In this document: positions 7,755 to 58,986 of the stretch, piece after piece | Layout of the letters: each line of letters begins with the position of its first letter | How positions within the stretch are numbered: position 1 is the first letter of the stretch | Source: Adineta ricciae | Lineage: Eukaryota > Rotifera > Eurotatoria > Adinetida > Adinetidae | Assembly (NCBI GenBank): GCA_905250025.1 | Contig: CAJNOJ010000373.1 | Span: 24,571 to 88,570, forward strand | Length of the DNA: 64,000 nt | Reading direction: 5' to 3' | The notes under the pieces: model-generated | What the model saw: only the letters and a program-made list of their open reading frames with translations | Told to the model about the DNA's origin: nothing | Database searches by the model: none | Translations under genes and position numbers: made by a program

Positions 7755-9508
7755 GACCTTGCGAGTCAGAATCAGCCAGTTTCACAATCTTCCAGTTATT
7801 ATTACCAATAACGCTGTTAACATTCTCTCTGTGTTTCTCTAACTTAATCAATAAAAAAAAGTAACACATATGGGTTCTGCACATTGTCATCTATTACTTC
7901 TTGCAAATAACACAACGAATGGATAAATGCTTTTTGTTGAGGGGTGTTCTAAAAAAAACCTTGACAGTGCTTGACACAAATCATGTGTCTTTCCCGCAAG
8001 ACTGAGACTGAACGTCAGAATAATAAAGTGATAATTTACTCGATAACACTATGCCGCGTTGATGAAAAAGTCATTTCATCTATAAGTAATCACAAAGCAA
8101 TCAAAATCGTTCTATGGAGTAGGTGTTAATTGCCGATAATATCGACTATAGAAAAGGCCACTTATCTGATACTTTTGAATGTCCTTAACATGAGACAATG
8201 AATTTTGGAAGTGTTTTACACTCGTAACTACAATTAGGAATAGAGCATCAAGTACGAGAGCTTTCATTCAAATATCAATATTCATTGAAACTGGACAAAC
8301 ACAGGAAAATTGAAATTAGCATACTTCCATCATATTGCTTTTCAATCGCTTCGATTTCTAATGATCGATCGGCTTCACGAAACTCTATAACGATGTAATA
8401 AAAAGATCGGGATAAAAACACTGCACTACTCACAATGAATCGATTTTCGCAATCACAAGAGTAATTTCCATTGCAAATACAGCATGGCCTTATGATAGTC
8501 AACATGCATTGATCATTCACGTGCTTAATTACATAAGCTGTATTACACGCATTAGCTCTGCATGAGAATATAGTCCGACAATAGCCAAAAATTCGGCCTG
8601 TTTTGTTCTTACTCTCGCTCTACAGTGCTGATAACACGTCTGGGTGGTAATTCAACTTTTACAGTTGCCACATCAACAGCGGTTGGAACAATATTGCGCT
8701 TAACGATTAACTCGATTGTTATTATCAACAATATGCATTACCAATGCTCGGTTATTTGGAGTAGCTATGCTAGTTGTAACAGCTTGACTTCTTTCCTTCA
8801 AAAATGGAAAAAAACCTGTCAATTTTTATCACCGAATATACTAAGTTATATTTCGGTTGCTTCCACGAGTCAGTCAACGCTACAGAAAGCATAATATACT
8901 TTTTATTTTTGCCGATCATTTACGATAATAGAGATTTTCAGTTTGCAATATGAGTCATCTCATCGTGATATTGATATGAGCATTATGTCTTCAAAAGTTT
9001 TCAAAATATTGCGTGTAGATGTCGGTAGTTTAAAAGTAACGATTTTCATGATGACAGTATTTTATAGAGTATAGATTTTGATCTAAATGTCTCTTAGAAA
9101 TGATCAAATACCAAACGTTAATGCTCTTTTTTATGAAGAGAAACTATCGGAGTGACATACAAACAATTCTGTAAAATCATGAATCGATACGAAGGAATGC
9201 ACACTAACCTAAGCGTGTTTGTCTTTTTCAGTCGATCGTTTGTCATAAAAATCTTTAATAAAGTAGACTTTTAAAGCAAACAAACTTTTTCGGTAGCTTT
9301 TCTTTCTTATTCTTCTGAATTCTCTATTGAAAAAAGACGTTTTTTTTCTTTTTTGTTCTTCCTTTCTTCAAGTCTGCGTAAATTTACTCGTTCACTTCGA
9401 TTGTATTTCTACAACATGCCCATCTGATTTCGGCGATGTTCGTCTACTCGAGAGTTTTGCTCAGCTAGCTTGTAAACCGACATTCGATTATAATTGTGAT
9501 TTCACACG
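7755..9508. other. Long intergenic region with weak coding traces
   Basis: Region between divergently transcribed receptor and acyltransferase genes. On the minus strand about 8275-8580 encodes a short Cys-rich stretch (CCICNGNYSCDCENRFIV) that could be one exon of a small secreted protein, but I find no start, signal peptide or second exon. The remainder is AT-rich with no supported gene. The acyltransferase promoter should lie in the last few hundred bases before 9509. Confidence 0.35.
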
Positions 9509-11661
9509 ATGCTTGTCTATCGAAAAGAAATCGATGGACTACGAGCAATCGCTGTTTTACCAGTCATTCTCTACCATGCTGGATATGTCAATATCGTTCC
9601 AGGAGGTTATGTCGGCGTTGATATATTTTTTGTTATTAGTGGTTATTTGATCACATCGCTTATCGATATGGAAATTCGTCAAGGAACCTTTTCACTCATT
9701 CGTTTCTATGAAAGACGTTGCCGTCGAATCCTTCCAGCGTTGTATGTTATCTCACTCGTTACTTGTTACTTTGCCTATCAACGGATGTCGCCAGGTCAAT
9801 TGGAAGATTTCGGTTATTCTCTCATTTCTATCATAACCTTTTCTTCGAATGTGTTTTTCTGGTGGAAGGATGATCGATACTTCTCACAATTGAATGAATT
9901 GAATCCGGTGGTTCATACATGGAGTTTAGCTGTGGAAGAACAATTCTATCTCGTTTTCCCCTTGTTATGCTTGCTGTTTGCTAGATGGCGACGAAATTTA
10001 CTGATTTTCTTGGGATTTGTTGGATTATTCAGCTTCTTTCTTGCACAATGGGGAGGTAACATTCAGATGATCTCGAAAAGGACGTTTTACATGTTTTTCC
10101 AACATTCGTGGGCATCGTTTTATATGCCAATCGGACGTATATGGGAATTATTACTTGGCTCTTTCGTGGCCTTCTATTCAAGAGCAAATGATTCAATCGT
10201 GTATGTATCAATTTTTCTTCCATTGATTTTAAAAGAATTGGATTTGAAAACCTGAGATCTTTAGTTTTCCCTGTTTTGCTTACAACAGATTCTATCCAGT
10301 TCGGACAAAAGGGTTTATTGATAACAAATATCTTTTCTAGGTCGGGCAAATCAATCGGTATGCGAGCACAAGTTGCTTCTGTGATTGGACTATCTTTGAT
10401 TCTTATATCGATTATGACACTAGACAGTCGTTCGATCCCTCCATTCCCAAATTGCTACACGATGGTACCTACTTTTGGAGCATCTCTGATTATTATCTAT
10501 GGAAAACATGATACTTTAATTGGACGTTTACTATCCTTAGAACCAGTTCGTTGGATAGGTTTAATATCGTACAGTGCCTACCTTTGGCACCAACCCTTGT
10601 TAGTTTGTCTACGTCTCGGCCCAATTTCCCTGATGACTATCTCGCATATGAAATCGGTGATCGTTATCATACTTCTACTTTCTGCAATTACGTATTATTC
10701 CATCGAGCAGCCTTTCCGCAATCGGACTTTATTTTCTCGGAGAGTTATATTTGGCTGCTCAGCTGCGGGAGCAGTTGTTTTATATTTCGTCGCAGTATTT
10801 CTCATTCATACCGCCAATTATCGGACCGCATTCATCGAAAAAGTAACAGATAATCGATCAGTGATTATCGACAGCATCATGCGCAACGGATCTTTGACTC
10901 TAAAAGAAGTCGACACATATCTGGCCGATATCGAACCCATGGAACTGTCGAACTATGTGACGCGTCGTTTCGACACTCATCTCAAAGCTTATCCAACGTT
11001 TTCTAAACAATCAGCGAACACAAAACGAAGACTTCTACTTATTGGTGATAGTTTCGCGCAAGACTTTATGAACATGATTGCCGAAACAAACAGCCTACAA
11101 AAGTACGAAATACGCTGTTATTACATTCGATTTCAGTGCCAGATCTACATGGGTGACGAAGATCGACTGCAATGGATTGCGTCATTTCACCGATCACTTT
11201 GCATCAACGATCACAAAATCCAATCGGCTATTCCAATGATACGTGAAGCGGATGTTATCATTCTCGCTGGTTTTTGGCTTCGATGGAGTGCTATACGATT
11301 GCCGAGAACCATCGAATTGTTAAATCTAACGAAGAGTCAGAAACTTCTTGTTCTAGGGTTGAAAAACTTTGGCGTCATCGATTTGAAAAAATACATGAAC
11401 ATGTCGTACGAATTTCGCATTCAGCAATTTCAACAACCCGAAGAAAATGCCACGGAAGTGAATACAATCATGAAACAAAGCTTTAGTCCATCAGTGTATA
11501 TCGATACCATGGGCATGGTCTGTGTTTTCAAGAATAACACCTGCCCTATCTTCACTCCACATGGCAAACTCATCACCTATGATGGCTGGCATACGATGAA
11601 ACACGGTGCGCGTTATGTTGGTGATATTATATTTAGTCACTATCCACTAAATCAGCTCTAA
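9509..11661 (+). CDS. Acyltransferase-3 / SGNH membrane protein (complete, two exons)
   Basis: Exon 1 is 9509-10200, exon 2 is 10341-11661; the 140-bp GT-AG intron splits a Val codon and gives 670 residues. The N-terminus has the family hallmark RKEIDGLRAIAVL, a catalytic-type His22 in LYHAG, then GGYVGVDIFFVISGYLIT and ERRCRRILPAL. About ten membrane helices follow. The C-terminal third is an SGNH hydrolase-like domain: Gly466-Asp467-Ser468 in GDSFAQD (block I) and Asp645/His648 in DGWHTMKH (block V). This OafA/YrhL layout is typical of bacterial O-acetyltransferases that acetylate surface polysaccharides or peptidoglycan. The intron and rotifer neighbours show that it is resident in the host genome. 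It converges on the receptor gene 82 bp downstream. Confidence 0.93.
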
Positions 11662-11743
11662 AACAAAACAAAGCGGTTCGATCGAAGAGCATTCGTTTTA
11701 TTGCGTATAACTAAAACTACAAGGTAATTCGAGAACACTAAAG

Positions 11744-12676
11744 TCAAGAATTTGTACCAGTTCTTGGCTGAACTTGGTTGTTGGTCCCTATAAAAAAGCT
11801 TGAAACGAGCTTTTTAAATTTATTTGTCATGGAAATGCTCATGAGAGCAATAAATATTAAACATGTAGCTGTAACCAATCCGACAATTGCATACGTCCAT
11901 ATAAATAAATATCCATTGCCAATTCCGTAGAATATAAAGGCAATAGTTGGAAAGCGTAGGCTGATTAAAATGAGTACACAGACGATAATTCGTTTAATAG
12001 CAGTAAAATCTCTCAAGTTTCGTTGTTTTTCCGTTGCACGAATGTTTGTTCTGGTTCGAATATATCTCGTTATCCAAATATAAATAACGATCATTGTTAT
12101 TAATGGAATGGAATACAGAACGAGGATTAAATAAAACGAACCAATCAGGTTATCATACGGAATGAGACAATAGCTTTCGCCCGGTAAGTGAATGTACCAT
12201 TTGAGAAATAATGTCGGCAAAAGTAAAATAATAGTTATGAACCATTGAATTAGGATTAAGACTCGATAAAACCTCCAAGATAACAAAAATCGAACTTTGT
12301 AGTAAATTATTCGACACAGACGATAAAACGATTGAAGACAATAACTGTAATATATTGCGCATTCGAATATGTCATAGAATAAGCCAAATATATAACAAAA
12401 GTCGATGTTGCGTAGCAGAAAGGGCTTGAAGACGTTTGAACTAACCATAGCTAAGACGCAGGATGATGTTAAGAATCCCGCTAGACAAGTGTTCATGGTT
12501 AAGTATAAGGAAATATCTTTTTCTCGTTGTTCATTTCGAATTTTCAAAAATAAAATAAATAAGATTAAAAATAGAAATATGCTGATTAAGGTCAAGGACC
12601 AATTGATAATACCAAAGGCCGGAGCACTTGCCATAATTCTATGAAAAGGAATTTGTTTTCTAGAAAGAAAACACAA
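11744..12676 (-). CDS. Orphan 7TM receptor, copy A
   Basis: A 310-residue protein with seven hydrophobic helices, basic intracellular loops (RYIRTRTNIRATEKQRNLRD) and a polar tail. The usual DRY box is replaced by a divergent YRLCRIIYY after helix 3, so assignment to class A is only by overall topology and by comparison with other rotifer receptors. A near-identical gene of exactly the same length sits at 55309-56241, in the same position relative to an acyltransferase gene. Two potential starts exist, Met1 and Met15; the second gives a shorter N-terminal tail. Transcription converges with the acyltransferase. Confidence 0.75.
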   Translation of the reverse strand: MCFLSRKQIPFHRIMASAPAFGIINWSLTLISIFLFLILFILFLKIRNEQREKDISLYLTMNTCLAGFLTSSCVLAMVSSNVFKPFLLRNIDFCYIFGLFYDIFECAIYYSYCLQSFYRLCRIIYYKVRFLLSWRFYRVLILIQWFITIILLLPTLFLKWYIHLPGESYCLIPYDNLIGSFYLILVLYSIPLITMIVIYIWITRYIRTRTNIRATEKQRNLRDFTAIKRIIVCVLILISLRFPTIAFIFYGIGNGYLFIWTYAIVGLVTATCLIFIALMSISMTNKFKKLVSSFFIGTNNQVQPRTGTNS

Positions 12677-14726
12677 TTCAGATGAAAAGTAGAATCACAA
12701 TGTTCAATTTATGATTCTAGATAAAACTAGTTGTTGTACGCTTTAAAAATCGAAATGTTAAACTGTATAGGCTTTTTGAGAAGTATTGTAATTATTAAAA
12801 TCTTAGAATCTAAGAAGCATACAACAACATCTGACATGGAACAAGACTAACAGCGCACTCTTTATACTCAAAGTATCATCCGGTATACTTCTCGTACTTG
12901 CTATCCTCTCTGAAAGCTACGTGAAATATTATTTCAAAATAACCTCATTGAAAACAAAGCTCCATATGACGTGGCTACCTCTTCCGCTAAACACATCAAA
13001 CTACGACATTTTGTGATGTGTCGGAAGCTAATGAAGGTAAAATGTTTCAAACTGATAAAATTATGAATATTAATTAATGGTTTGTGTCTTATATGTTTTT
13101 CTAATGATTAAAACCAGATGGCGGAAGAAAGAAATTTTATAACACTAAAGAAAGTTTGTCTTATTCATAAATAATAAATATATGCCCACGCTGTTTAATG
13201 ATAATAACAGGTTTCTGTTCTAATTCCCGAGAAGTAATTTCATGAAACTGTATAAAGTCGTCATGGTAACAGTCTAGAGTAATCAATGGCGAATTTTGAT
13301 GAAAAGTACTTTCATAGTGCCTACGTATTCCTATTTCTTTTACTAGTCACAATTAGAGTGAGTTTCCTCGTATTATCTACTGTAGAACTTCTATGATGAA
13401 CTGAAACCTCTCAAGTCACTAAGTCCTAATTTGCTCGAGGAGTAAATACACAATAGGATGGCAAAATCTATGCAAGACGGAAGCCATGTCATGCAAAGTT
13501 AATCAGATGTTGGCAATGAGCATTTCTGTGTATAATCAGTTATACGCCCTTAGTAGATGAAGGTTCTTAACATTCAGACTATTCAGAAACTTGCTCACAG
13601 TCAGTTCTTCAACGACATCGATCTCCACAGAATGCAAAGTCTTTTTTTTAAATCTCTCGTACATTAAGGGACTGACGTCAAAAGATTTTTGTTGCTTCTA
13701 GTTACTATCCATTAATTAAAATCTTAATACGACTATATGATGTTTTTCTCTTGACATTAAGACGCGAATAGCTACGTATCTAAGTAGGACACAAACGTAT
13801 TTGACCTCTTAAATGAGAACGTTCGGAGCAGATGTTCATCTTGAAAGTTGAGCTTTTAGAAGTCCTTTACCAAAAAGATTTAGCTTAAGAAAAACAGTTC
13901 GGCATATGTCAGTCACGACACAAATGACGACCGAAATCTTTCTTCAGGTACTCGTGTACATTTAGCTCTTAATTACAATGTAAATAGAGATATATCCAGT
14001 TCTTTTACTCTTCTTCGTCGCTCACATTACTTCCTGCTGAAATTGGAAACGGTACATTGGATCCTCCTCACTGTTATTTCTCCTGATTTCTGCTGTTGAT
14101 TATAATGAGAACTACGTGATCTGTAATTTTATGATCCATTCATACAGAATTAATACAAAGCAGGCAGATTTCTTGTCACGATTATGGCTCCGATGAAGTC
14201 ACGCACAAAAAATTAAATTGCAAAGTGAAATGATGATTGTGCAACAGATAAACTCTAGACATGAAATGACAAAACGCACTTACATTAACTAGAAGGAAAC
14301 ACAGAAGTGGTTAATGTCTAATTTGCCAATAGTATTGACTGAAAAAATGAGGATAAGAAATAAAATACAATAAATTGAAGGTCACATCATTATGAGTTTG
14401 GAACTATGCCACTTCATTTTTAGTTGAATGTGAATGCAGACAGCAATCAAATATATACGCTCATCGCGAGAAACAAGAATATGATCAAAGGACATGTATT
14501 CATTGCTAAGTTTTATTTATTATTCATATGTTATAACAATTATTGTCGAGAAAAGCAGTTGGCTCATATGAAATCAAACTTAACGTCAACTGTGTTCTCA
14601 TTCGATACCAAATTGAATGATGGAACCAATAGAAGAATTCGTATGAGATTCTGTTCTTTTATGCCAAGCGTAGTGAAGGCGCACAAAGTTTCATAATTTT
14701 CATCATACTTTTTCTTTGTATTTTAG
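12677..14726. other. Non-coding / decayed host block, homologous to 56242-58701
   Basis: This stretch aligns along its whole length with 56242-58701 and, from about 14190, with 49690-50601. It carries the remains of the 5' exons of the Cys-rich gene described at 58003-58986; for example 14424-14696 encodes the same CREKQLAHMKSNLTSTVF region. The block ends at a splice acceptor (AG at 14725-14726) shared by all three copies. After about 14740 this copy departs into Bacteroidota-like sequence while the other two continue into the Cys-rich exon. No intact gene is present here. Confidence 0.65.
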
Positions 14727-17700
14727 TGTTGTCTTCAACATATGTTGAGGGATCAACTGAATCTGATTACGAAAGCATTGAAACAATTAGTAATGAATGT
14801 CCCATTTCATAGTTATATCGTGATCTTTATTCTTACGATGTAGGTCCGGGACATCCAAGACCGTATTTATACAGTTATGATGATCCTGTGTATATCTTCG
14901 CGGGCAAGTTTTCAGCAAACGGATTTTTCATCAAATTCAGTCAGTGGTCTGGTGAACCGAACGGTCCCGGATATCATAGTTTTAAAAATCCTAACAGTCT
15001 TCAAAGCAGATATTTCAATTTATACAATACTATAAGTGAAAAGTTATCTGATTTTATCAGTGATCAGGAGCGAGTAGTGTTTGTGTCAAGTATAACTACA
15101 GATTTCAGAGTTTACAAAAGTAATGGAACTTATAGGAACCTTACAGGTTACAGCAACTATGGTGCTTTATATTTTGGATATGATAATGATCAGGAAGGCA
15201 GTCGTAGAGGACCGGGATCTAAAAACTTTATTGTTTCGAGTACTTCTGAAATGACATTATATGGAATGGGTGCATTACGAAACAACTTTATTGATTCTGT
15301 TTGAGACACTCATCTATCCGATCAATGCAGGATATTGAAAAAGAAATCGTAAAATTCATCAAATATACCGGCATCTTCGGAAATACTACTGTCTATGATG
15401 ACACTTCAAATTGCGCAGCCGAATGTTTTACAGCAAATCCTGGAGCTGTTTCAGATTTCGTTGTCGTCGATTGGGCAAAGGCGTCGAACAGTAATATTTT
15501 CACAGGAAAAAATCAAAATGGCAGCGAAGTTGATGGTCTCTACATTCCTGTAAAGAAAGCCTATGAAATGTGATCTAAGGGAGGTGAATTCATGAAAGAT
15601 GACAATGGAAATTTCACTCCTATTCCATCAGGAACACCGAAAGCAGGATTATATCGGGAAGACGAATCAGGACTAATTAAATCTGTAGTTTTGGAAGGAA
15701 CAGGTGAAAATGCTAAAATTAAAATTTTAGTCAATAAGCTTAAAGAAGGAAATGCCATTGTATCCTATCGAGTGAATGATAAAGTTTACTGGACTTGGCA
15801 TGTTTGGGTAACCGATGATCCAACTGTGAATAGTAGTACTTACCATCTAGGTTTTGAAAAAGATAAAAATGGAAATCCTGTTATAGACTGGAAATGGATG
15901 GACAGAAATCCTGGGGCCACAAATGCAAACTTCTTAGGTAACAATTGGCATAAGTCTCAATGGTTACAATATCAATGGGGAAGAAAAGACTCTTTTCCTG
16001 CTCTCATCCATAAAGACGGAACAATGTATGAGATTTCGGGAGAAATTGGTAACATTAGAAGCGTAGGAGCTGTTTATACAACAGGATCAACTTCTGCATT
16101 ACTGGTAAAATACAGAGGAAACTTATAGCCACAAGACAATACAGGATATATCACTTTCAGCAGAAATATTCATTATTCTGTACAGAATCCGATCCACTTG
16201 ATCATTCCGCCACTTTATGCTAGAAAGTACAATGAGATGGTCATTAATAGCGGCGAGGAAATTTTTGTTAAAAACAGTGATAAGTTATGGTATCATCAGA
16301 AACGGACAACATGGTTCTCTAAACAGAAATACAAAAATGGTTTCAACAGCACCGATCCTTCGCAGAATGTTGCATGGGATCTTTGGGGCGACACTCGTGG
16401 TGGCCAGATAAGTGATCTAAATAACCCTCAATTAGTTGAAGAGAATAAGCGCTACGCAATGAAATCTCCTTATGACCCTTGTCCGTGTAAGTGGAGAGTA
16501 CCATCATACTATGACAATGTTGGAAGCCCTAACAATGATAACACTTTTACTTCTAACGTTTCAACATCAAGCACGAGATTCCCCGGAATTAAGATATATC
16601 CCGGTTTAGGATATGATTTTACAGGCGTTGCTAGCCGTAATTTAGGATCAATTCCGATTAATGGGAACTATGAGTATTAACCAAATTATGTTACGATTAC
16701 AAACGTCAATACTTCAAGATTAGTAACACCTAAACTTGTGTATCAAGATGGTTCATTTGATGGCGCATTGGGTTCTTCCAGATCGCGGACCTTGGTATGG
16801 GCCAAGACAACTTGGCTATGTTTCAGATCCAGGAAGTGTTAAAGAAACTGCCAATAACTTTGGGTACTATACTATTAACTCTATTTCACATGACGGAAAC
16901 ACACACGAAACAGTCGGGAGCAAATGTATTAAAGACCCAAATAACGCCTTTATACCAAATGCATTTGAAACTGAATTTATTAGCAGCCAAAATGAAGAAT
17001 ACACAATATCTACTCTTAATAACTGGGCAAAAGATCCAACTAGCTATGTGGAATATACTAACAGCTCAGTGACAACGGCGAAACCGACAGACAAAGACCG
17101 CGTTATTACAGTTCCCTTGCGTAAAGCTTATGCAATGTATAAGTTGCATTTAAGCACAACAGAGGAATATCCTCAGGGAAGTGTCAAATCCAGTTCTGTA
17201 GTATGGACTACCAATACAGGTTTGATCCAAAACATAAAAATAATCGATGGAAGCAATGAAACGACTAAACTTCGAGTTACTTTAAACGAAAATCAATACG
17301 GTAACGCTGTGGTAGCTTTCCACTTAGGGAACTCCAGCCAGTGAGCAAATGGAAAAATGCAGGATCCTATTATTTGGAGTTGGCATATTTGGGCTCCTGA
17401 AGCAATAGTTGGTTCATTAGATTACGAAACTGAAACCTCGGCGAATAGAGGTATTATAAATGTTTCTAATACAGCTTTCATAAATCCCGTGAAAAGTATT
17501 GGCGTTCCATTGAAGACTATTCTCATGGATCGAGATTTGGGAGCTCTGATGATGTTCCTGGAAGAAGCTTCTGCAGGTAGTGCATCATATATTTACAGCT
17601 TCATTCCTCAAATCAGTAAAAGTGGAGGGCTGTATTTTCAATGGGGAAGAAAAGACCCTCTTCCTGTCTTCATCAATGCTGGAGGACATTATGATTTCGG

Positions 17701-18178
17701 AACTGCAGTAGGAAGCCAGGGAAGTATTTATAAGAATATTAACAGATATACAATTCGTACTCAGAGCGGACCAATGAGTAATGGAATAATTCCTTATTCA
17801 GGAACAATTGACAGTACAAGTTATACTACAAATTATGCTAAAGAATTCTCGACCGATTATTCTTCGGCGTTCGTGTCTGCAGATGCTAAGAAGGACAAAA
17901 TAAAGAAAGTATTGATGTATTCTGTGAACAATCCGCTATATTTTTTATATCACAATCCTTCAAATGAAACAAATCAATTTAAAAAAGTTCGTGAGTGGAT
18001 ATTTGATGAAAACGGTCAGTTTACAAACAGATGAGGATACGGTACAGAAAAATCATCTTTTGATCCATGTCCTGAAGGGTGGAGAGTTCCTGATACTTTC
18101 TATGCATCTTGAGGGTGAGAGTAATAGTGTTTCATATTCAACTGCATTTGTAGGTGGCAGAGCCATCTGGGGATAATT
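14727..18178 (+). pseudogene. Decayed Bacteroidota-like surface protein gene (horizontal transfer candidate)
   Basis: Open segments 14888-15304, 15301-15573, 15592-16128, 16198-16680, 16736-17344 and 17357-18034 belong to one long protein broken by in-frame stops and about three frameshifts (near 15300, 16800 and 18110). Two related modules are visible. Module A (about 15520-16510) and module B (about 17100-18090) each have VPxxKAYxM, a W-x-W-H-x-W strand, W/LMDRxxGA, QWGRKDxxP and DPCPxxWRVP in that order. This arrangement is known to me from Bacteroidota (Flavobacteriia, Bacteroides) secreted or lipoprotein-like surface proteins and fimbrial-like paralogs, not from animals. Stops are at 14810, 15571, 16126, 16678, 17342, 18032 and 18110. 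No introns are visible. Host genes flank it in the same contig, which argues against contamination. It cannot make a full protein. Confidence 0.7.
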
Positions 18179-18180
18179 CG

Positions 18181-18724
18181 GACCAAAATGGCAAAGATTG
18201 AAAAGGTTTTGATAAAAAGCAGTTTTTTTATCACAGTTAGAACAAAAAATGCTCTATCTATACTGTGAAAGGATATCGTCCATATCACCTATACAAAATA
18301 ACATCAGTAAAACAACGCTACGAACCCTGTCTACTCACGAAAAATGCTTTAACATCCATGTACTTCCTGTACCAAATAAACTATAATTTGATCTTGATAT
18401 TCATGCGCTTCGCAGTCATACTTTGCGTCGCGACATCTTTAAAAAATAAACGAATAGGAATTTATCGAATACTTTCATATTGAATCATCCATAATGATGC
18501 TCACTCTCATTTACAAAATCATGCAATGGAGAATAATGATTCAGTTTTCATCCTGAAAGTCACTATAGTGCATCACTTCTGAATACCAGACAATGCGAAA
18601 AAGTGACGTCGAGCACAGAACTCATCTGAGACGTGAGGACCAATTTTATTTTTCTTCACCGTCTTCATCTACACCCTTGGGATAGCTTTATCTTTTTACT
18701 TCTTTTGAAAAAAAAAAAGATGAG
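18181..18724. other. Intergenic, no gene seen
   Basis: Spacer between the bacterial-like pseudogene and the 3' end of the F-box gene. No recognisable coding or repeat content. Confidence 0.45.
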
Positions 18725-20592
18725 CTATTGAACTGTACATTTTCTTCGCGTTTGACGATGAGATATCATTTCGGCATTAATCCACAAAATGAACTTTTTG
18801 GTTTGATCATTATAGTTGAATACTTTCGATTCGAATTCATTCATTTCTAATCTTGAATGTTTACTGATCCATGTTGGATTTGGAGCATATTGATTTGGAG
18901 TTAAATGTAAAGTGAGTTTCTCTAGATGAACAAATTCATTGATTAAATAGAGAATCATACTTCGTGATTGATAATTTACTGTTAAATCAGTTAATCGAGG
19001 AAAGAGAAAAATCAAATGATGGAACAGTTCTGTTCTCGTTTTTGACTCGTAATCAGCAAGAATAAGTTTACGAACCGAAGGAAAGCTTAAAGACCATGAG
19101 TTAAATATATCACAAACTTTTGAATCTCGAATACAAAGGTAATAAAGATTAGGCATATTTTCCAATAATCGAATAAATGTATTTGCACTTTCGGCTATTG
19201 ATCCAAAGCTAAAATATTTGACTCGATTCAAATTGACTTGTTCCTGAATTTGATTACAAACATATTCTGATAAATATCCAATCAATACAAGTCGATCCAA
19301 ATTATTAAAGCGTGGTGATCGCCGAGTAGGTTCAGTTATAAATATTTGGTCATTATCTCCATATTCTGATAAATCTATTTGTAAATGATTAATATTTCGA
19401 TAGAAAATATCCCAATTCATAATGTCACCAAGTGAATATGTATTTCGATTATCACACCTAGTCGAAGCAAAATATGGCACAGTTATAAGTAGTTGTTTAT
19501 GATAATCATATTCGATAAACCATTGCTTTTTCTTTAACCACCATTTTGTTCGAAATGTTTTTAAAAGAGAATCTATTCGTTGTTCTGACGTTTTGGATGT
19601 CGGCAATTGAAAATTAAATGTTTTTAAATCAATAAGTGATGTTGTTATATATGATTCCCATACAATTCCATTTAATAAATCATTATCTGCTGTTAATGGT
19701 TGATTTAATATTAAAACTAAATGTTTTAATCTAAACATATTCGAAAAAATATCTTGTAACATGACAAATTGTAGATGAAAGTCAACTAAATCAAAATTTG
19801 AAATATGATGTCAACTGAAAATAATAAATATAACTTACCATTTAAATTGAGATTCAATTGAACTAATTGTCTCCATTGATAATATTGAAATTTGTTAATG
19901 AATTGTTGAATATTCATCGACGTGCATTTTATACCGATTCCTAATGATTTTAATTGATGAATATTAAAACGAATACATTGATCCATATCATCAATCGAAT
20001 TAAAATACATATGTAAAAAAGTTAAATTAGTTGGTATCTTTTTTACTAATTGAAGAAATTGTTTACTAGAACATACAGCAAGATGTGTCAACGATTTCAA
20101 TGAATAATCGAATCGAACAAAGTTCTTGGATGATCGAATACGATCGAATCGAACGGAACTAAGTTGATTGTAATTAACAATTGATGCAAATTTTGAGAGA
20201 AATTGTCGATCAACTTCGATTGTATCGTCAGTCCAAAATGAACGAAGACGAGTTAATATTTGTTGTTTATTGGCAAAAGTCAATAGAAATCGATTAACAA
20301 CATTAAATTCATTTTCACTTAATTTTAATCCAACAATTTGATTTGATCGTAAAAACGAACAAATTAGATGAAATTCTTTTTTCGACATATCCAATTGAGA
20401 TAAATCTAATATATAATGATTGTATCCAATTAACACATTATTCAAATGCATATTAATTGAATAAAATGCTTTTAAAATATAACCTCCAGAAAGATACGAG
20501 AATATTTCATAAAATAATTCAATTGGTAAATATTCGAACAACATTTTATCAACATAAAATCTAGAAAGAAAATTTTGTATAGGAGAATACAT
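18725..20592 (-). CDS. F-box protein with LRR-like C-terminal region (two exons)
   Basis: Exon 1 is 20592-19839 and exon 2 is 19785-18725; a 53-bp intron with a GTAAGT donor splits a Val codon and yields 604 residues. The N-terminal segment MLFEYLPIELFYEIFSYLSG (Met17 onward) is an F-box, which docks to Skp1 in SCF ubiquitin ligases. The rest is rich in regularly spaced Leu and Ile with LRR-like pieces such as LTHLAVCSS and LRHLVL-type strands, the usual substrate-binding shape in this rotifer family. Met1 or Met17 could start the protein; the F-box begins at Met17. Substrate unknown. Confidence 0.8.
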
Positions 20593-20654
20593 AAGAATAT
20601 CTATTTGACATCATGAAAGGTTTTCGGACAGAAAAAGAATGATTACATTTGTTC

Positions 20655-21344
20655 TTAAACGAATTCTTCGATATGACGTTCGCATAAAACATCCATATAA
20701 TGTCTCCATCGAGTATAATACCATGCTTCAATCTTTTCTCCACAAGATTTGGATCGAGTGTCAAAACAATTGTTGAGGATACATGAAACAATCACGAGGA
20801 CGATTGGAAATACACATTGCATGATTATCATACCAAAAACACATTGATAATATCTTTCTGGACAAGACAACAGCATCACAGCTTTCTTATTCTGAAGTGT
20901 TACTCTAATATCATTCATTTCTGCGCCTGTAAAAATAAACAGATCTATGAAAAGATGCCACCCGGGTACACATACATAGGCCACAGCCATTTGTACAATA
21001 TGAAAATATAAAGGCCATTCACGACGTATTAGTTTACGAATAAGAAAAATAAAAATACCTAAAACGAATGGAACATTCATAAACAAAGATGCACGTATCC
21101 ATCCAAGATTTTCATATGTAAGTGGACAGTTGAAACAGGCTAATATGATTTGAGGAATAGAAAATAATAGAAGGCCAAGGATTAGGATAATTTTTATCAA
21201 TCGATCACAATATTTTATGAAACATGGGCTTGAAGTTCTCGATGGTCTTTCATGTGTAACATGATGAATAGAAGTATCGTAAACGCGAGGAGATAAAATT
21301 CCAATCATATCAGCATAAGGTGGTCGATTCAATTTGAAAGACAT
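20655..21344 (-). CDS. Four-helix membrane protein of unknown function
   Basis: A 229-residue protein with a 45-residue polar N-terminus and four hydrophobic segments (about 50-72, 84-105, 113-135 and 171-193), followed by a Cys- and Trp-containing cytoplasmic-type tail. I do not recognise the family. It starts with ATG at 21342-21344 and lies on the same strand as the F-box gene, 62 bp upstream of it. Tetraspan topology is suggested only by hydrophobicity; the CCG motif of tetraspanins is absent. Confidence 0.55.
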   Translation of the reverse strand: MSFKLNRPPYADMIGILSPRVYDTSIHHVTHERPSRTSSPCFIKYCDRLIKIILILGLLLFSIPQIILACFNCPLTYENLGWIRASLFMNVPFVLGIFIFLIRKLIRREWPLYFHIVQMAVAYVCVPGWHLFIDLFIFTGAEMNDIRVTLQNKKAVMLLSCPERYYQCVFGMIIMQCVFPIVLVIVSCILNNCFDTRSKSCGEKIEAWYYTRWRHYMDVLCERHIEEFV

Positions 21345-29921: not shown

Positions 29922-30383
29922 TCATTGCTTGCCTAGAGATAACAATGACATTGTTTGACTTTTGTTAGAAGTGTGTCGAACAGGAAATGGTTGCCAATAT
30001 GCAAACATATGATGAAGAGAAATTAAACAATTAATGCCACTTTGAAGATAACCACGTAGCTCACCTTGATGATCAACTTGATGGAAATGTGGATTTTGTG
30101 TTTGATTTAAATGAAGATATTCAGTGACACAACGTCCAATCATCTCGTCGCCACCAAACGATGTTAAATATTTCTTTTGACATTGATCGATCCATGGCAA
30201 CAGATATGCAACTAATGTACGACTAAGAAGAATACCTCCACCACCGTAAGCAAAATAATCTCCATGCGTAATGATTGATTGTTGTCGATCAGAAATATTG
30301 CCTAAATAGATCAGTTGCGATCTTGAGGGTGTGGGTGAGGGTGTCGATCCTTGAAATTGTTCAAGTTTTCGCACATTACACAT
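29922..30383 (-). CDS. GT31/fringe-like glycosyltransferase, C-terminal part
   Basis: A 153-residue piece. The segment FAYGGGGILLSRTLV followed about 25 residues later by FGGDEMIGRCV is the conserved core of fringe-like and core-1-type beta-1,3-glycosyltransferases, where the GGAG-type loop and the GD(E/D)-x-x-x-GxC stretch shape the acceptor and donor site. ISLHHMFAYW near the end matches the terminal region of such enzymes. The N-terminal half with the DxD motif and the membrane anchor is not found upstream, so this is either the last exon of a gene with distant 5' exons or a truncated copy. Golgi lumen if functional. Confidence 0.5.
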   Translation of the reverse strand: MCNVRKLEQFQGSTPSPTPSRSQLIYLGNISDRQQSIITHGDYFAYGGGGILLSRTLVAYLLPWIDQCQKKYLTSFGGDEMIGRCVTEYLHLNQTQNPHFHQVDHQGELRGYLQSGINCLISLHHMFAYWQPFPVRHTSNKSQTMSLLSLGKQ

Positions 30384-38144: not shown

Positions 38145-38244
38145 NNNNNNNNNNNNNNNNNNNNNNNNNNNNNNNNNNNNNNNNNNNNNNNNNNNNNNNN
38201 NNNNNNNNNNNNNNNNNNNNNNNNNNNNNNNNNNNNNNNNNNNN
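38145..38244. other. 100-base scaffold gap with G-rich edges
   Basis: Exactly 100 n, a placeholder gap. Both edges (about 38088-38130 and 38245-38325) are G-rich on the plus strand, unlike anything else in the window, and include TGTGGG several times on the right. They may be hard-to-sequence repeat or low-quality read ends. Confidence 0.9.
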
Positions 38245-49536: not shown

Positions 49537-49922
49537 GTAGTTTCTCTTCTATCTTGATAATGATGTCTTAGATCATCGAAATGTCGATTCTTCTTTTATT
49601 TTATTTCAATAGACATAAGTTCGTTATGTTATTTCAAAGTCGCTGTTATTTACACATTTCTTTTGAAATTATTGTCTTTATCAACTTCTAATGTTTACAC
49701 GCAAGAAATTAAATTGCAAAGTGAAATGATGATTGTGCAACAAATAAACTCTAGACACGAAATGATAAAAAGCACTTACATTAACTAGAAGGAAACGCGG
49801 AAGTGGTTAATGCATAATTTGCCAATAGTATTGACTGAGAAAAAAAACGAGGATGAGAAATAAAACACAATAGATTGAATATCACATTATTATGGGCTTG
49901 GAACAATACCACTTCATTTTTA

Positions 49923-50886
49923 GTTAAATGTGAATGCAGACAGCAATCAAGTATATGCTCTTCGGTCGTTCGATCTTGACTGTGCTTTGTTTCGGTTTAT
50001 TAGTTATGTATATGAATACAAAGTCGATGAGTCTCTCGAAGAATTACATGAAGAATGGTAGGGTAAATGTTGCATTCAGCATACTCTTGTTTATATAAAA
50101 AAATAGATGCCATTCGGGTGGTGTTCACTACTGATTTCATCAGTGATGATGGTGCGATTCCCATCGATATGAATTCGTTATTGCGACAGGTAAACTTGAC
50201 TGTTAGTTTACTGTTAAACATCCAATATGACTATCACAAACATACAGATCAATTATCAAAGCAACGAATACGGTTCGTCAAAGTTTTTTCGCATGTTTAT
50301 TCTGATTCTTATAATTCTTTACTTCTGATATAGAAATGGCGTATCATGCGATATAAATATCATCGCGAGAAACAAGAATATGATCAAAGGACATGTATTC
50401 ATATGTGATGACAATTATTGTCCAGAAAAGCAGTTGGCTCATATGAAATCAAACTTAACGTCAACTGTGTTCTCATTCGATACCAAATTGAATCATGCAA
50501 CCAATAGAAGAATTCGTATGAGGCTCTGTTCTTTTATTCCAAGTGTAGTGAAAGCGTACAAAGTTTCATAATTTCCAGTCTACCTTTTCTTTGTATTTTA
50601 GTGTTATCTTCTACCAAGGACGAAACTAATCTTGAGCGAGACGACAACATTTGCCCAGAAAAAACGTGCTCTCAACCAACGTTGTATGACAAATACCGAT
50701 TGTGCCAATGGCAACTGTCATATTCTACTCAAAACATGTCAAAGTATGGGTAGTCTGGAAATTTTTCCTCACAACGGTACTCTTCTTCTAGCACCTTCGT
50801 GTACAGATGGTAACAAAAATCAAGATGAACTAGCTATTGATTGTGGAGGCGCAACTTGTTTAACTGCATGCAGCGAACTACAATGA
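49923..50886 (+). pseudogene. Cys-rich secreted/membrane protein gene, copy in central contig
   Basis: Matches 58003-58986. The 5' exon region encodes a short hydrophobic anchor (SILTVLCFGLLVMYMNT, about 49950-50020), with middle exons at 50067-50333 and 50380-50571. The last exon begins after the acceptor at 50601. It carries RCMTNTDCANGNCHILLKTC and SCTDGNKNQDELAIDCGG, a Cys pattern used in extracellular repeats of bacteria and rotifers (DGxxNxxExxxDCGG). Frames in the middle exons are interrupted relative to the other copy, so it is probably degenerate or has exon borders I could not set. Confidence 0.45.
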
Positions 50887-51408: not shown

Positions 51409-53063
51409 ACAGAAGACATAAGGGAACGAATCCTCTTGAAGTTTTTCATACCTTATAGAGGTCTATCTATTGCCAAAAGATGAGCCATAAAGGCCTTTAT
51501 CATCTCGAGAGGTTTCCTCGTAAGTTAAGTGACCAGAGAAAACATCCTTCTCTGATCAGTAATCGCAAGCTTATTCATTAAATAGAATTAAAACAGAAAC
51601 TTTTCGGGTACATGTCGTCTGTTGAAATGTCGTACGCGGTAATAACACGCGCAAAAATGTCGTGGAATCCGATTACATATTTAATAGAAATGTGTGCAAT
51701 TTAAAAAGTATTAAGAAATATGTAGTCATACGAATAAAGAAGCTTTCAAGATCTGTATTTTAGCGTTACAGTTGTTCTTATATCTAATTTCTACATTGGA
51801 GAAATAACGGCTATATAGTAGAAGTCAGTTTTCATTAATTTTCGGTAGAATAGTTACTATTTAAGTATCATAAACAGTGGAAAATTATTACCGTTGGATC
51901 TTTATTCAATTTCATCTATAGTAATGAACTTATTGTTTTATACTTTTAGCTTTCTACTAGTATCTAGAAATTATTTCTGTGACCAACTTCAACATTATAT
52001 TGTGTATTTACACATGCAATTGACACCAACTACGTAAGTCTTTATGTGATTTGAATTTCATAAATTTTTGATAGCGCACAAACTTTTACACTTCGAATGC
52101 CAGTATTTTTGCCAGTGGGGATGGTACATCTTCCGGTGGATTGTCAGATGAAAATAGGATCAAACGCATACAAAAGCTTTCTTACAAATGTCTTAAGTAC
52201 GACATTAAAATTTTGCTACACCTCTTAGTACTAGATTCATTCGAAAAGAAATGCGGAAAATTCAAATTTTATCCGAAAGTTACATGTACTGCAAGAGATG
52301 TATCAAAGTAGAAGGTTTCAAAGCTGTCACCAGCAGCATTTTGTTGATACTTTGACGATTGAGAGAAAGAAATAGTTAGAAATTTTAAAACATTATTTAA
52401 GAAGATAAATATCATGAATTTGATTGATACAAGAAAGGATACGACGGAAATGAAGAAGAGAATTAGAAAGGAGAGAGAAAGTTGAAAGACAAATTTCAAG
52501 TCGCGTTGGGTTTCGTATTAAATATTATTTTAAAAAAGCGTAAATATGTTAATGATTATGAATACAATTATCATGAAAAACCAAAACCAATCAGCATTAA
52601 AATCTGTATAAAAAGAACGATCTAAATAATCTTAAAGATGAATGAATGTGGATTGTGTAGTTTAAATTTTGGAAATGAGTATAGTTCGTTTATCCACGAA
52701 CTCCTGAACTTTTTTTATTTCAATCTGCCAAGCATATCTTGTTATAGACATCCTGTTTAGTTAGTTCAATTTTGTCATTCCGACATCCGTGACGAAAAAT
52801 TTTGGATAATTTTTTCGTTAGAAGTTTGGAATGATGAGATGAGACGAAACATCGTTTTCTCACTTTGACTATGCTCAACTCGAATCCCCAATTTAGTAAA
52901 TGGTGTTTTTGAACGAGTCTCTACATTTTACGTTATTCAGCATGTTCAGAATGATTTTGTTAACGTTAATCGATAGAAAGATGATTTGGATGAAATTCAC
53001 CCAGATCACTCACACTCAGCCTCACTCTTTTCAAATTATTTCAAATTTTTTTTTGTTTTAAAG
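51409..53063. other. Intergenic block, second copy of 43146-44653 with differences
   Basis: No gene. Aligns with 43146-43857 and 44390-44653; 52190-52675 is unique to this copy. About 52838-52950 is an extra segment of roughly 120 bases beside the motif TTAGAAGTTTGGAATGA, not present in the other copy. Confidence 0.5.
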
Positions 53064-53426
53064 AAAACTCAAATGTCTTGTTGGCGGTGGTGCTGGTTTC
53101 ATCGGCAGTCACTTAGCACGACGATTGAAATTAGAAGGTCATTATGTAGTTGTAGCAGATTGGGCACGAAATGAATATTTTACTGAAGATGAATTTTGTA
53201 ATGAATTTCTTCATATTGATTTACGTGTACTTGATAATTGTCTTAAAGCATCAGCTGGATGTGATTGGGTATTTAATTTAGCTGCCGATATGGGTGGAAT
53301 GGGCTTTATCGAATCGAATCATTCTGTCATTTTGTGGAACAATACTATGATCTCATTTAATATGCTCGAAGCTGCTCGTCGCAATGGTTGTAAACGTTTC
53401 TTCTACTCTTCAACCGCTTGTATTTA
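53064..53426 (+). CDS. GDP-mannose 3,5-epimerase-like, copy 2, N-terminal part
   Basis: Same acceptor and frame as copy 1, with only scattered silent or conservative changes (for example Val to Ala in KASAGCDW). It stops at the n at 53427 just after STACIY. The tail of the same copy resumes after the n. Confidence 0.85.
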
Positions 53427-53427
53427 N
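53427..53427. other. Single-n join hiding about 650 bp
   Basis: Compared with copy 1, the bases equivalent to about 45017-45670 are missing here. The n is a gap of that approximate size, not one base. Confidence 0.85.
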
Positions 53428-53470
53428 AGCCAATAATAGTTTGCAACATATTGGGCAAGTTAAAAACTAA
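53428..53470 (+). CDS. Epimerase copy 2, last 13 codons
   Basis: Identical to the end of copy 1 (ANNSLQHIGQVKN and stop), followed by the same spacer. Confidence 0.8.
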
Positions 53471-54816: not shown

Positions 54817-55226
54817 ATGTTATCATTCTCGCTGGTTTTTGGCTTCGATGGAGTGCTATACGATTGCCGAGAACCATCGAATTGTTAAATCTAACGAAGA
54901 GTCAGAAACTTCTTGTTCTAGGGTTGAAAAACTTTGGTGTCATCGATTTAAAAAAATACATGAACATGTCGTACGAATTTCGCATTCAGCAGTTTCAACA
55001 ACCCGAAGAAAATGCTACAGAAGTGAATACAATCATGAAACGAAGCTTCAGTCCATCAGTGTATATCGATACCATAGGCATGGTCTGTGTTTTCCAGAAT
55101 AACACGTGTCCTATCTTTACTCCGCATGGTAAACTCATCACCTATGATGGCTGGCATACGATGAAACACGGCGCGCGTTATGTCGGTGAAATTATCTTTA
55201 GTCAATATCCACTAAATCAGCTGTGA
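54817..55226 (+). CDS. Acyltransferase-3 / SGNH protein, C-terminal part (continues copy 1)
   Basis: Encodes the end of the SGNH domain, including the block V motif DGWHTMKHGARYVG, then a normal stop. Its first 174 bases are identical to 1612-1785, while the complete copy at 9509-11661 differs from both at two positions in that stretch. It is therefore the missing end of copy 1. Confidence 0.88.
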
Positions 55227-55308
55227 AACAAAACAAAGCTGTTCGATCGAAGAGCATTCATTTTATTGCGTATAACTAAAACTACAAGGTAATTCGAGGA
55301 CACTGAAG

Positions 55309-56241
55309 TCAAGAATTTGTACCATTCCGTGGCTGAACTTGGTTGTTGGTTCCATTAAAAAAACTTAAAACGACCTTTTTAAATTTGTTTGTCATGGAAA
55401 TGCTCATCAGCGCAATAAATATTAAACATGTAGCTGTAACCAGTCCAACAATTGCATACGTCCATATAAATAAATGTCCATTACCTATTCCGTAGAATAT
55501 AAAGGCAATAGTTGGAAAACGTAGACTGATTAAAATGAGTACACAGATGATAATTCGTTTAATAGCGGTAAAATCTCTCAAGTTTCGTTGTTTTTCCGTT
55601 GCACGAATGTTTGTTCTCGTTCGAATATATCTCGTTATCCAAATATAAATGACGATCATTGTTATTAATGGAATAGAATACAGAACGAGGATTAAATAAA
55701 ATGAACCAATCAGGTTATCGTACGGAATGAGACAATAGCTTTCGCCTGGTAAATGAATGTACCATTTGAGAAATAATGTTGGCAAAAGTAAAATAATAGT
55801 TATAAGCCATTGAATTAGGATTAAAATTCGATAAAACTTCCAGGATAATAAAAATCGAGTTTTGTAGTAAATTATTCGACACAAACGATAAAATGATTGA
55901 AGACAATAACTATAATATATTGCACATTCGAATATGTCATAGAATAAGCCAAATACATAACAAAAGTCGATGTTGCGTAGCAGAAAGGGCTCGAAAACGT
56001 TTGAACTGACCATGACTAAGACGGAGAATGATGTTAAGAATCCCGCTAGACAGGTGTTCATGGTTAAGTATAAGGAAATATCTATTTCTCGTTGTTCATT
56101 TCGAATTTTTAAAAATAAAATAAATAAGATTAAGAATAGAAATATGCTGACTAAGGTCAAGGACCAATTGAGAATACCAAAGGCCGAAGCACTTGCCATA
56201 ATTCTATGAAAAGGAATTTGTTTTCTGGAACGAAAACGCAA
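55309..56241 (-). CDS. Orphan 7TM receptor, copy B
   Basis: A 310-residue allele or paralog of 11744-12676 with the same length, helices and neighbours. Differences are scattered (for example RSRKQ for LSRKQ at the start, SFFNGTNNQVQ for SFFIGTNNQVQ at the end), and all seven helices are kept. The frame is intact, so both copies look functional. It converges with the acyltransferase at the same spacing as copy A. Confidence 0.75.
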   Translation of the reverse strand: MRFRSRKQIPFHRIMASASAFGILNWSLTLVSIFLFLILFILFLKIRNEQREIDISLYLTMNTCLAGFLTSFSVLVMVSSNVFEPFLLRNIDFCYVFGLFYDIFECAIYYSYCLQSFYRLCRIIYYKTRFLLSWKFYRILILIQWLITIILLLPTLFLKWYIHLPGESYCLIPYDNLIGSFYLILVLYSIPLITMIVIYIWITRYIRTRTNIRATEKQRNLRDFTAIKRIIICVLILISLRFPTIAFIFYGIGNGHLFIWTYAIVGLVTATCLIFIALMSISMTNKFKKVVLSFFNGTNNQVQPRNGTNS

Positions 56242-57990
56242 TTCAGATGAAAAGTAGAATTATAATGTTCAATTTATGATTGTTGATAAAATAGTTGTCG
56301 TATGCTTTAAAAATCGAAGTGTTAAACTGTATAGGCCTTTTTGAGAAGTATTGTACTTATTAAAATCTTAGAATCTAAGAAGCGCACGATAACATCTGAT
56401 ATGGAGCAAGACTAACAATGCACTCTTTATACTCAAAGTATCATCTGGTATACTTCTCGTACTTGTTATCCTCTGTGAAAGCTACGTGAAATACAGGAAG
56501 AGTGAAGCGTTTGATGCACTCACATACATCTTTTCATTGTGATCTGAAAAGAAAGCTCCAGATAACGTGGCGATCTCTTCCGCTAAACATATCAAACTAC
56601 GACATATTGTGATGTGTCAGAAGCTAATGAAGCTAAAATGTTTCAAACTGATTAAATTGTAAATATTAATTAATGGATTATGTCTCTTACATTTTTCTAA
56701 TAATTAAAACCAGACAGTAGAAGAAGGGAATTTTATGATGCTAAAGAAAGTCTTTTTTTTATAAATAATAAATATATGCCCACACTGTTTAATGATAATA
56801 ACAGATTTCTATTCTATTTCCCGAGAAGTAATTTCATAAAACTGTATAAAGTAGTCATAGTAACAGTCTAGAGTAATCAATGGGAAATTTTGATGAAAAG
56901 TACTCCATAGTTCCTACGTATTCCTATTTCTTTTATTAGTCAAAACTGACGTGATTTCTCTCGTGTTATCTACTATAATACATCTATAGTAAACTGAAAA
57001 CTCTCAAGTCACTAAATCATAATTTGCTCGAGGAATGAATTCACAACAGGATGGCAAAGCCTATGCAAGAGGAAAGCGATGTCATGCGAAGTTAATCAGA
57101 TGATGGAAACGAGCATTTCTATGTATAATCAGTTATATGCCCTTAGTAGATGAAGGTTCTTAACAATCAGACTGTTCAGAAGCTGGCTCACAGTCAGTTC
57201 TTGAACGTCATCGATCTCCACAAAATACAAAGCCCTTTTTTACATCTGCTGTATGTCAAAAGATTGACGTCGAAAGATTCCTGTTTCTTCTAGTTATTAT
57301 CTATTAATTAAAACTTTAATATGAATATCTGATGTTTTTCTTTTGACGTTATGACAAGAATATCCATCTACCTAAGTAGGACACGAACGTATTCGACCTC
57401 TTTAATGAGAACATTTGGAGCAGATACTCCTCTTCAAAGTTGAGTTTTTATAAGTCCTTTGCTAAAAAGATTTAGCTTAAGAACAACAATTTGGCATATG
57501 TCAATCACGGCACAAATAACGACCGAAGTCTCTCTTCTGGTACTCGTGTACGTATAGTTTTGAATTACAATGTAAATAGAGATATAACCAGTTCTTTCAC
57601 TCTTCTTCATCGCTCACATTACTTTCTACTGAAATTGGAAACAATCCATTGGATCCTCCTCACTGTTATATCTTCTGGTTTTTGCTGTTGATTATAATGA
57701 CATCCACCTGATCTGTCATTTTATGATCCATTCACACAGAATTAATACAAAGCAGGCAGATTTCTTGTCACGATTATGGCTTCGATGAAGTCACGCACAA
57801 GAAATTAAATTGCAAAGTGAAATGATGATTGTGCAACAAATAAACTCTAGACACGAAATGATAAAAGGCACTTACATTAACTAGAAGGAAACGCGGAAGT
57901 GGTTAATGCATAATTTGCCAATACTATTGACTGAAAAAAAAACAATAGATTGAATATCACATCATTATGGGCTTGGAACAATACCACTTC
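56242..57990. other. Intergenic block, homologous to 12677-14420
   Basis: No supported gene. A 66-codon plus-strand frame at 57491-57691 ends in a hydrophobic stretch; the matching place in the other copy is not open, so it is probably not coding. Confidence 0.45.
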
Positions 57991-58002
57991 ATTTTTAGTT
58001 GA

Positions 58003-58986
58003 ATGCGAATGCAGACAGCAATCAAGTATATGCGCTTCGGTCGTTCGATCTTGACTGTGCTTTGTTTCGGTTTATTGGTTATGTATATGAATACAAAGCC
58101 GATGAGTCTCTCGAAGAATTACATGAAGAATGGTAGGGTAAATGTTGCATTCAGCATACTCTTTCATACATATAAAAATAGATGTCATTCGGGTGGTGTT
58201 CACTACTGATTTCATTTATGTTGATGGTACGATTTCCATCGATATGAATTCGTTATTGCGACAGGTAAACTTGACTGTTAGTTTGCTGTTAAACATCCAA
58301 TATGAGTATCACAAACATACAGGTCAATTATTGAAGCAACGAATACGGTTCGTCAAAATTTTTTCGCATGTTTATCCTGATTCTTATAATTCTTTACTTC
58401 TGAATATAGAAATGGCGTATCGTGTGATACAAATATCATTGCGAGAAACAAGAATACGATCAAAGGACATATATTCATTGTCGAGTTTTATCTATCACCC
58501 ATATATGATAACAATTATTGTCGAGAAAAGCAGTTGACTCATATAAAATCAAGCTTAATGTCAACTGCGTTCTCATTCGATATCAAACTGAACGATGGAA
58601 CTAACAGAACAATTCGTATGAGGCTCTGTTCTTTTATTCCAAATGTAGTGAAAGCGTACAAAGTTTCATAATTTCCAGTCTACCTTTTCTTTGTATTTTA
58701 GTATTATCTTCTACCAAGGACGAAACTAATCTTGAGCGAGACGACAACATTTGCCCAGAAAAAACGTGCTCTCAACCAATGTTGTATGACAAATACCGAT
58801 TGTGCCAATGGCAACTGTCATATTCTACTCAAAACATGTCAAAGTATGGGTAGTCTCGAAATTTTTCCCCACAGCGATACTCTTCCTCTAGCACCTTCGT
58901 GTACAGATGGTAACAAAAATCAAGATGAACTAGCTATTGATTGTGGAGGCGCAACTTGTTTAACTGCATGCAGCAAACTACAATGA
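58003..58986 (+). CDS. Cys-rich protein with N-terminal membrane anchor
   Basis: Exon 1 starts at ATG 58003 and has a signal anchor (SILTVLCFGLLVMYMNT), ending at a GTAGGG donor near 58134. Exon 2 begins near 58183 (DVIRVVFTTDFIYVDG) and remains open to 58537. The last exon follows the acceptor at 58701 and ends at 58986, with CCMTNTDCANGNCHILLKTC and SCTDGNKNQDELAIDCGGATC. The Cys pattern and the DGxxNxxExxxDCGG motif mark an extracellular module. The splice between exons 2 and 3 is not resolved. Function unknown. The locus is present three times in the window, and the copy at 14.7 kb has lost this last exon. Confidence 0.45.

Follow-up and report, generated by a model that had tools for sequence, protein, structure and literature searches.

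A decayed, end-truncated copy of a Chryseobacterium-type surface-protein gene, and its relatives on other contigs, in the genome of the rotifer Adineta ricciae

Results

The gene remnant and its surroundings

The window is the whole stretch of 64,000 nucleotides that was analysed, and lies on contig C373. With the protein of contig C950 (P0001) as the tblastn query, the remnant of a foreign gene with both ends missing was located on its + strand (Table 1). Identity to P0001 in the three aligned stretches was 77.4-77.6% (E of 8e-69 or less), so the set of motifs is not due to chance. The remnant covered codons 268-1376 of the 1564 codons in C950, and codons 1-267 and 1377-1564 had no counterpart. 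At the DNA level, homology was limited to 14826 to 18105; the span of 14727-18178 in a preliminary description, made from the sequence alone, thus contained a real gene within bounds about 100 and 70 bases too wide. The six open segments mentioned in that description were all present in the window ORF list, and the ten motifs of its two ordered modules occurred once each on the + strand of the window.

Table 1. Features of the decayed gene copy and its flanks, in window positions.
Feature	Position	Strand	Basis
Decayed, end-truncated copy of a Chryseobacterium-type T9SS surface-protein gene	14834..18109	+	tblastn with P0001, DNA homology limits
Aligned stretch 1, C950 codons 268-422; part of predicted lectin-like jelly roll	14834..15301	+	tblastn, structure model
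Aligned stretch 2, C950 codons 421-929; module 1	15298..16779	+	tblastn, motifs
Aligned stretch 3, C950 codons 939-1376; module 2	16787..18109	+	tblastn, motifs
In-frame stops, stretch 2	15571 (TGA), 16126 (TAG), 16678 (TAA)	+	
In-frame stops, stretch 3	17342 (TGA), 18032 (TGA)	+	
Frame change, stretch 1 to stretch 2, near 15300	15298..15304	+	
Frame change, stretch 2 to stretch 3, near 16780; C950 codons 930-938 without counterpart	16779..16787	+	
TGA immediately following the final homologous codon; limit on the right	18110..18112	+	
Left junction: similarity to other places on the contig stops at 14739, gene homology from 14826-14834	14740..14833	.	
Open segments (six)	14813-15304, 15295-15573, 15574-16128, 16129-16680, 16727-17344, 17345-18034	+	
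Module 1 motifs	IPVKKAYEM 15544-15570, WTWHVW 15790-15807, MDRNPGA 15898-15918	+	
Module 1 motifs, continued	QWGRKDSFP 15973-15999, DPCPCKWRVP 16474-16503	+	
Module 2 motifs	VPLRKAYAM 17111-17137, WSWHIW 17375-17392, MDRDLGA 17525-17545	+	
Module 2 motifs, continued	QWGRKDPLP 17639-17665, DPCPEGWRVP 18062-18091	+	
Left flank, 85-89% similar to 54817-58714 and partly to 49702-50614	11252..14739	.	
Right-flank ORFs (F-box in the preliminary description), no Pfam match at E<=0.01	18725..20610	-	

The window copy was broken throughout, as had been described, with five in-frame stops, two frame changes and the loss of both ends; it is a pseudogene, carrying disabling lesions while the related frame in C950 is open. 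Three of the five stops were TGA at sites that are Trp in C950 and C259. Recoding of TGA as Trp was rejected, and decay is the simpler reading, because TAG and TAA stops (both at Tyr sites) and two lost ends accompany the TGA stops. A TLDc match on stretch 1 (E 0.047) was below the cut-off and was dropped.

No N occurred in 1787-31586, so the description of one uninterrupted contig is right for the surroundings of the gene; elsewhere in the window there were single Ns (1786, 31587, 33774, 35499, 51408, 53427 and 54816) and a 100-N gap (38145-38244). The window contained animal genes, identified by profile matches to 7tm_1, dual-specificity phosphatase and ADP-ribosyltransferase/TPR, and gap-free linkage of the gene copies to animal genes was found in 1787-31586 of the window, in C950 (1-13816) and in the C259 stretch. 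None of the repeats of the left flank contained the foreign gene. To the right, 18110-20700 was unique in the genome except for one 52-base match elsewhere, and the ORFs that had been taken for an F-box gene (18725-19810 and 19786-20610) gave no profile match to justify that name. Duplication of a whole block as the source of the window copy was rejected, since similarity to C259, C950 and C690 was limited to the gene. Single Ns lay at the edges of several repeats of 89-96% similarity (1786, 31587, 33774, 53427 and 54816), for which reason some of the local duplications in the window, left flank included, may be joined alleles.

Other features of the window were recorded. An acyltransferase-3 plus SGNH gene in two frames (PF01757, PF19040) occupied 9500-11661, with similar stretches at 2-1785 and, in part, at 54817-55226; this arrangement is frequent in bacteria, and the gene is perhaps another foreign one. 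A NAD-dependent epimerase gene (PF01370; 44652-45713, with a partial repeat at 53062-53436) is also possibly foreign. An ADP-ribosyltransferase domain was fused to TPR repeats at 59933-62707 (- strand). Two overlapping one-mismatch matches to a bdelloid telomere-like repeat lay at 30324-30341, and two were obtained in 0 of 100 shuffles.

Copies elsewhere in the genome

The search with P0001 covered the whole assembly (130 Mb, 1033 contigs) and returned 11 matches on five contigs (C950, C259, C373, C690 and C206). The long animal copies were 79-83% alike. In C950 the gene was a single stop-free frame of 1564 codons, in which the first in-frame ATG was codon 48, leaving 1517 codons; with no in-frame ATG ahead of it, the signal-like stretch is not obviously translated. 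The C950 contig (13.8 kb) was free of N over its length and contained a protein kinase gene. The C259 copy was near-complete with one frame change, its frames of 191 and 1390 codons overlapping in different registers at an A run, and its neighbour, with no intervening N, was a secreted phospholipase A2 gene. The C690 copy was partial and consisted of the N-terminal part (approximately 500 codons) with a bacterial-type signal peptide, and C206 held a broken C-terminal fragment. No animal copy was thus intact by the letter, considering the start in C950, the frame change in C259 and the partial or broken state of C690, C206 and the window copy.

An additional C-terminal "tandem" fragment in C259 begins at a single N (L004:3464), and a retroelement adjoining the C690 copy lies past a single N (L049:6641); nothing was inferred from either, both being at or beyond a single N. 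A formate/nitrite transporter frame (PF01226, E 6.7e-53; L049:1806-2357), possibly foreign, shared a gap-free piece of contig C690 with the gene copy. A secreted-looking DUF6055 protein (E 1.2e-26; L053:2668-3906), possibly foreign as well, was encoded some 7 kb away from the C259 copy, the two being separated by an N.

A 17-base stretch upstream of the C690 copy, on its coding (minus) strand from L049:5597 downwards and 116 bases ahead of the start codon, agreed at 16 positions with the core of the bdelloid spliced leader; this was the best such match in the 151 kb of animal DNA searched. The 23-base leader did not occur exactly; one mismatch gave 41 places, and allowing up to three gave 46 (reversed control, 0). 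By these matches and a general likeness, the host is probably a bdelloid. According to the available part of PMC1925144, two bdelloids of different families have one 23-base leader in common, and a monogonont is without it. A longer 21-base leader pattern had no match with up to three mismatches in L049 or the window, and the 162 bases surrounding the leader-like core had no other match in the genome. The core is a lead, which might represent a retrocopied trans-spliced message, a relic of a leader gene, or chance. Acceptor-like sites preceded the C259 start by 24 bases and also occurred within the C950 frame, immediately ahead of the signal-like stretch; the C690 start was preceded by none (background, 1.54 sites per kb and strand).

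Bacterial homologues and trees

Bacterial loci were collected by a pattern-seeded scan with one genome per species. All 30 confirmed loci (28 Chryseobacterium and 2 Epilithonimonas by title) were homologous over the whole length, and frames of >1300 codons were recovered in 27 of them; the full-length homologues had approximately 1520-1710 aa and a type IX secretion tail. At least 164 of 173 Chryseobacterium genomes had a match, with a best identity of 69% among the matches listed, and many of the genus matches were shorter paralogues near 40% identity. Most Chryseobacterium genomes held such an additional, shorter relative of approximately 1150 codons (near 40% identity, among the matches listed). 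The Bacteroidota origin proposed for the gene is upheld.

In the whole-gene tree (26 rows, 4 animal and 22 selected bacterial), the animal copies formed one clade (100/100), sister to C. carnipullorum plus C. shigense (99/96); the bootstrap of this tree was unsettled (0.980), and its root was a single Epilithonimonas row with long-branch warnings. Segment trees, from which near-duplicate rows were left out, also grouped the animal copies in one clade, with support of 100/98 for residues 56-300 (3 animal of 32 rows), 100/100 for 56-420 (4 of 33), 96/99 for 561-1000 (3 of 27) and 100/97 for 1001-1376 (3 of 27). The animal clade lay inside Chryseobacterium in the whole-gene and the segment trees, which points to Chryseobacterium as the donor lineage. 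Linkage to animal genes and this nesting agree with the horizontal acquisition into an animal contig that had been proposed.

The nearest bacterial loci changed along the gene: the N-terminus was closest to L027, the middle to L064 together with L008 and L009, and the end to L008 and L009. Their order was alike for the animal copies present in each segment, and this common mosaic was absent from the sampled bacteria, a pattern that speaks for the transfer of one allele from an unsampled strain. Together with the single clade, it suggests that a single allele was probably transferred and later duplicated. In the N-terminal 130 residues (56-185), C950 had 75.2% identity to L027 vs 74.4% to C259. 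None of 11 neighbours of the bacterial gene matched the animal loci examined. Distant matches at the module level came from Bacteroidales, namely a protein of Bacteroides finegoldii and a DUF4906 protein of Parabacteroides, and one phage record and two plasmid records matched distantly and in part.

Domains and export tail

The bacterial homologues end in a type IX secretion (T9SS) sorting domain, detected with PF18962 in L008 (E 1.7e-10) and L023 (E 8.1e-12) and with TIGR04183 in L008, L023 and L025, that is, in 3 of 3 tested among the 27 long frames; the tails of all 27 were alike by eye. The animal copies had no PF18962 or TIGR04183 match. C950 ended ahead of the tail, C259 kept a recognisable tail start behind stop codons, and so did C206, with a different stop. 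The export tail was therefore gone or stopped in every animal copy with a 3' end. Animal cells are not known to have a T9SS. The loss in C206 may be plain decay, and, as this copy is broken elsewhere too, the informative tail losses are those of C950 and C259.

At E<=1, the open copy matched no family in Pfam or NCBIfam and no sequence in PDB. FISUMP (TIGR02145) scored 19.3 and 14.9 bits in L023 and L025 vs a cut-off of 41.65, with no match in L008 or the animal copies. No Pfam or NCBIfam profile match to DUF4906 was obtained for P0001 or P0002, the relation consisting of a tblastn match to a DUF4906-annotated protein only. A structure model (pLDDT 80) predicted a jelly roll in the animal protein, which may be lectin-like (concanavalin A-like).

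Selection, age and decay

Nei-Gojobori dN/dS was 0.155 between C950 and C259 (1552 codons), 0.161 between C950 and the window copy (1079 codons) and 0.142 between C259 and the window copy (1083 codons); pairs with C690 gave 0.139, 0.241 and 0.179 over 512, 501 and 248 codons. By branch in the trio (limits from 300 resamples), dN/dS was 0.152 (0.116-0.207) for C950, 0.106 (0.073-0.147) for C259 and 0.170 (0.129-0.227) for the window copy; a trio including C690 was too loose for use (C690 0.309, limits 0.143-9). Five stops were seen on the window branch vs 51 expected had it been dead throughout. Assuming a constraint of 0.11-0.15 before death, the dead phase took up approximately 2-7% of the window branch, for which 1-4 stops are predicted. 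The values of 0.14-0.16 among the long copies and 0.17 on the window branch suggest that constraint came before death and that death was late. The earlier proposal that the acquisition never became functional does not agree with these ratios, with the open C950 frame or with the near-complete C259 copy; its alternative, that the gene is no longer functional, fits the dead window copy.

Synonymous divergence (dS) between C950 and C259 was 1.3 or saturated in the first 450 compared codons and 0.45-0.74 (two to three times lower) afterwards, which is at odds with one simple duplication; gene conversion between the copies or separate transfers may account for it. The CpG content was 0.69 in C950, 0.79 in the window copy, 0.68 in the bacterial gene and 1.12 in the window, and the codon usage of the animal copies was intermediate. 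Long residence is thus not evident in C950 or the window copy, and composition, a weak means of dating, does not favour a very long one.

Discussion

The probable account of these results is that a gene was acquired from Chryseobacterium, duplicated, and held by purifying selection, with the window copy a dead, end-truncated duplicate. The insertion first noticed would accordingly be horizontally acquired, as supposed; it would not be a lone one, having relatives on other contigs. The bacterial gene would encode a large surface protein made up of a signal peptide, a beta-sandwich domain, a lectin-like jelly roll, two repeated modules and the C-terminal T9SS tail. One mosaic allele would have entered the animal genome and been duplicated to at least five places; the protein body would then have been long under purifying selection, and the tail, useless without its machine, lost. 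Most likely, the better copies make or made a protein exported via the animal's own secretory route and binding glycans or surfaces. The window copy would have been cut at both ends and then have decayed recently. The single clade with a single mosaic favours the animal, over the donor, as the place where constraint acted. A more specific version is tentative, with somewhat less than an even chance: C950 and C259 would be a domesticated giant bacterial adhesin, expressed (perhaps leader-spliced) and host-secreted, with its binding domains under selection and the T9SS tail shed; C690 may derive from a trans-spliced message, and the window copy would be a late casualty.

The uneven dS along the gene, an N-terminal similarity to bacteria equal to that between copies, the bacteria-like CpG content and the presence of some defect in every copy would also be expected if the gene had been transferred several times, from unsampled but related strains of Chryseobacterium, and each copy had decayed once it had arrived. 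In that case the low dN/dS would date from the bacteria and be uninformative on use in the animal. This is unlikely, though to be taken seriously, considering that the animal copies formed a single clade in the whole-gene tree and in each of the four segment trees, that multiple donors would need the same mosaic, and that the best identity to bacteria was 69% among the matches listed (173 genus genomes) vs 79-83% between the long animal copies. A gene acquired once and never used, with neutral decay of all copies since arrival, would agree with a window copy broken throughout and with no copy being proven intact; a stop-free frame of 1564 codons, dN/dS of 0.14-0.16 and about 5 instead of 51 stops on the window branch make it very improbable, and it holds only if the divergence arose in bacteria.

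Bacterial contamination or misassembly is the least probable origin, with hardly any weight left to it. Single-N joins do exist in these contigs, and the available part of PMC5709863 gives Chryseobacterium as a contaminant of a nematode culture. Against this, stops and frame changes occurred within an otherwise bacterial gene, copies were present on five contigs, no N separated the copies from animal genes in the window, C950 and C259, bacterial neighbour genes were absent from the animal loci examined, and divergence from the sampled bacteria was at least 31% among the matches listed.

On the preferred reading of acquisition, duplication and constraint, a multi-domain bacterial surface protein of approximately 1500 residues was apparently kept and multiplied in an animal and lost its bacteria-only export tag. 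With copies at several stages (open, with one lesion, partial, dead, and a fragment) present in a single genome, it becomes possible to test what happens to an acquired gene: the part that selection acted on, the duration of that selection, and the way in which copies die. A broken foreign gene can also lead to a family that is better preserved at other places in the genome.

Comparison with known systems

In a literature search covering few subscription journals, no published case of a rotifer carrying a Chryseobacterium or T9SS protein gene came up. Publications joining bdelloids, horizontal gene transfer and Chryseobacterium dealt with pcnB in bacteria and with contamination of a nematode assembly, neither of which is this case. 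For an ecological link, no Bacteroidota terms were found in PMC12650600 and PMC11258130.

Likeness to type V (Mfa/Fim) fimbrial accessory and DUF4906 proteins was at the level of modules, with a query coverage of only 11% and 38%: a protein of Bacteroides finegoldii, whose gene follows those of Mfa1 and FimB/Mfa2, had 37.9% identity over residues 503-678, and the Parabacteroides DUF4906 protein had 24.3% in two pieces. Unlike in Mfa/Fim systems, the animal protein had no Pfam match and no fimbrial genes were seen around L008 (ORF list, by eye). The Chryseobacterium T9SS type A surface proteins (e.g., the 1633-aa frame of C. carnipullorum, L008:6007-10908) were homologous over nearly the whole length, with 65-69% identity to the animal copies and the same domain order; they differ in ending in PF18962/TIGR04183, which in the animal copies with a 3' end is absent or behind a stop.

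Transfer into bdelloids is a known phenomenon, and the Chryseobacterium surface-protein case is a new, informative member of it. In the available parts of the sources, foreign candidates amount to 11.7-14.5% in four bdelloids (PMC5916493), and a eubacterial origin was assigned to 40.7% of foreign transcripts (PMC4632278). The compendium of PMC13342648, in the part available, excludes pseudogenes. The horizontally acquired bdelloid genes described in those parts (PMC5916493, PMC4632278) are, like the present ones, linked to metazoan genes, nested among bacteria and present in several copies. The foreign genes described in PMC4632278, as far as its available text goes, are mainly enzymes, whereas the present gene encodes a large non-enzymatic surface protein and its window copy is dead.
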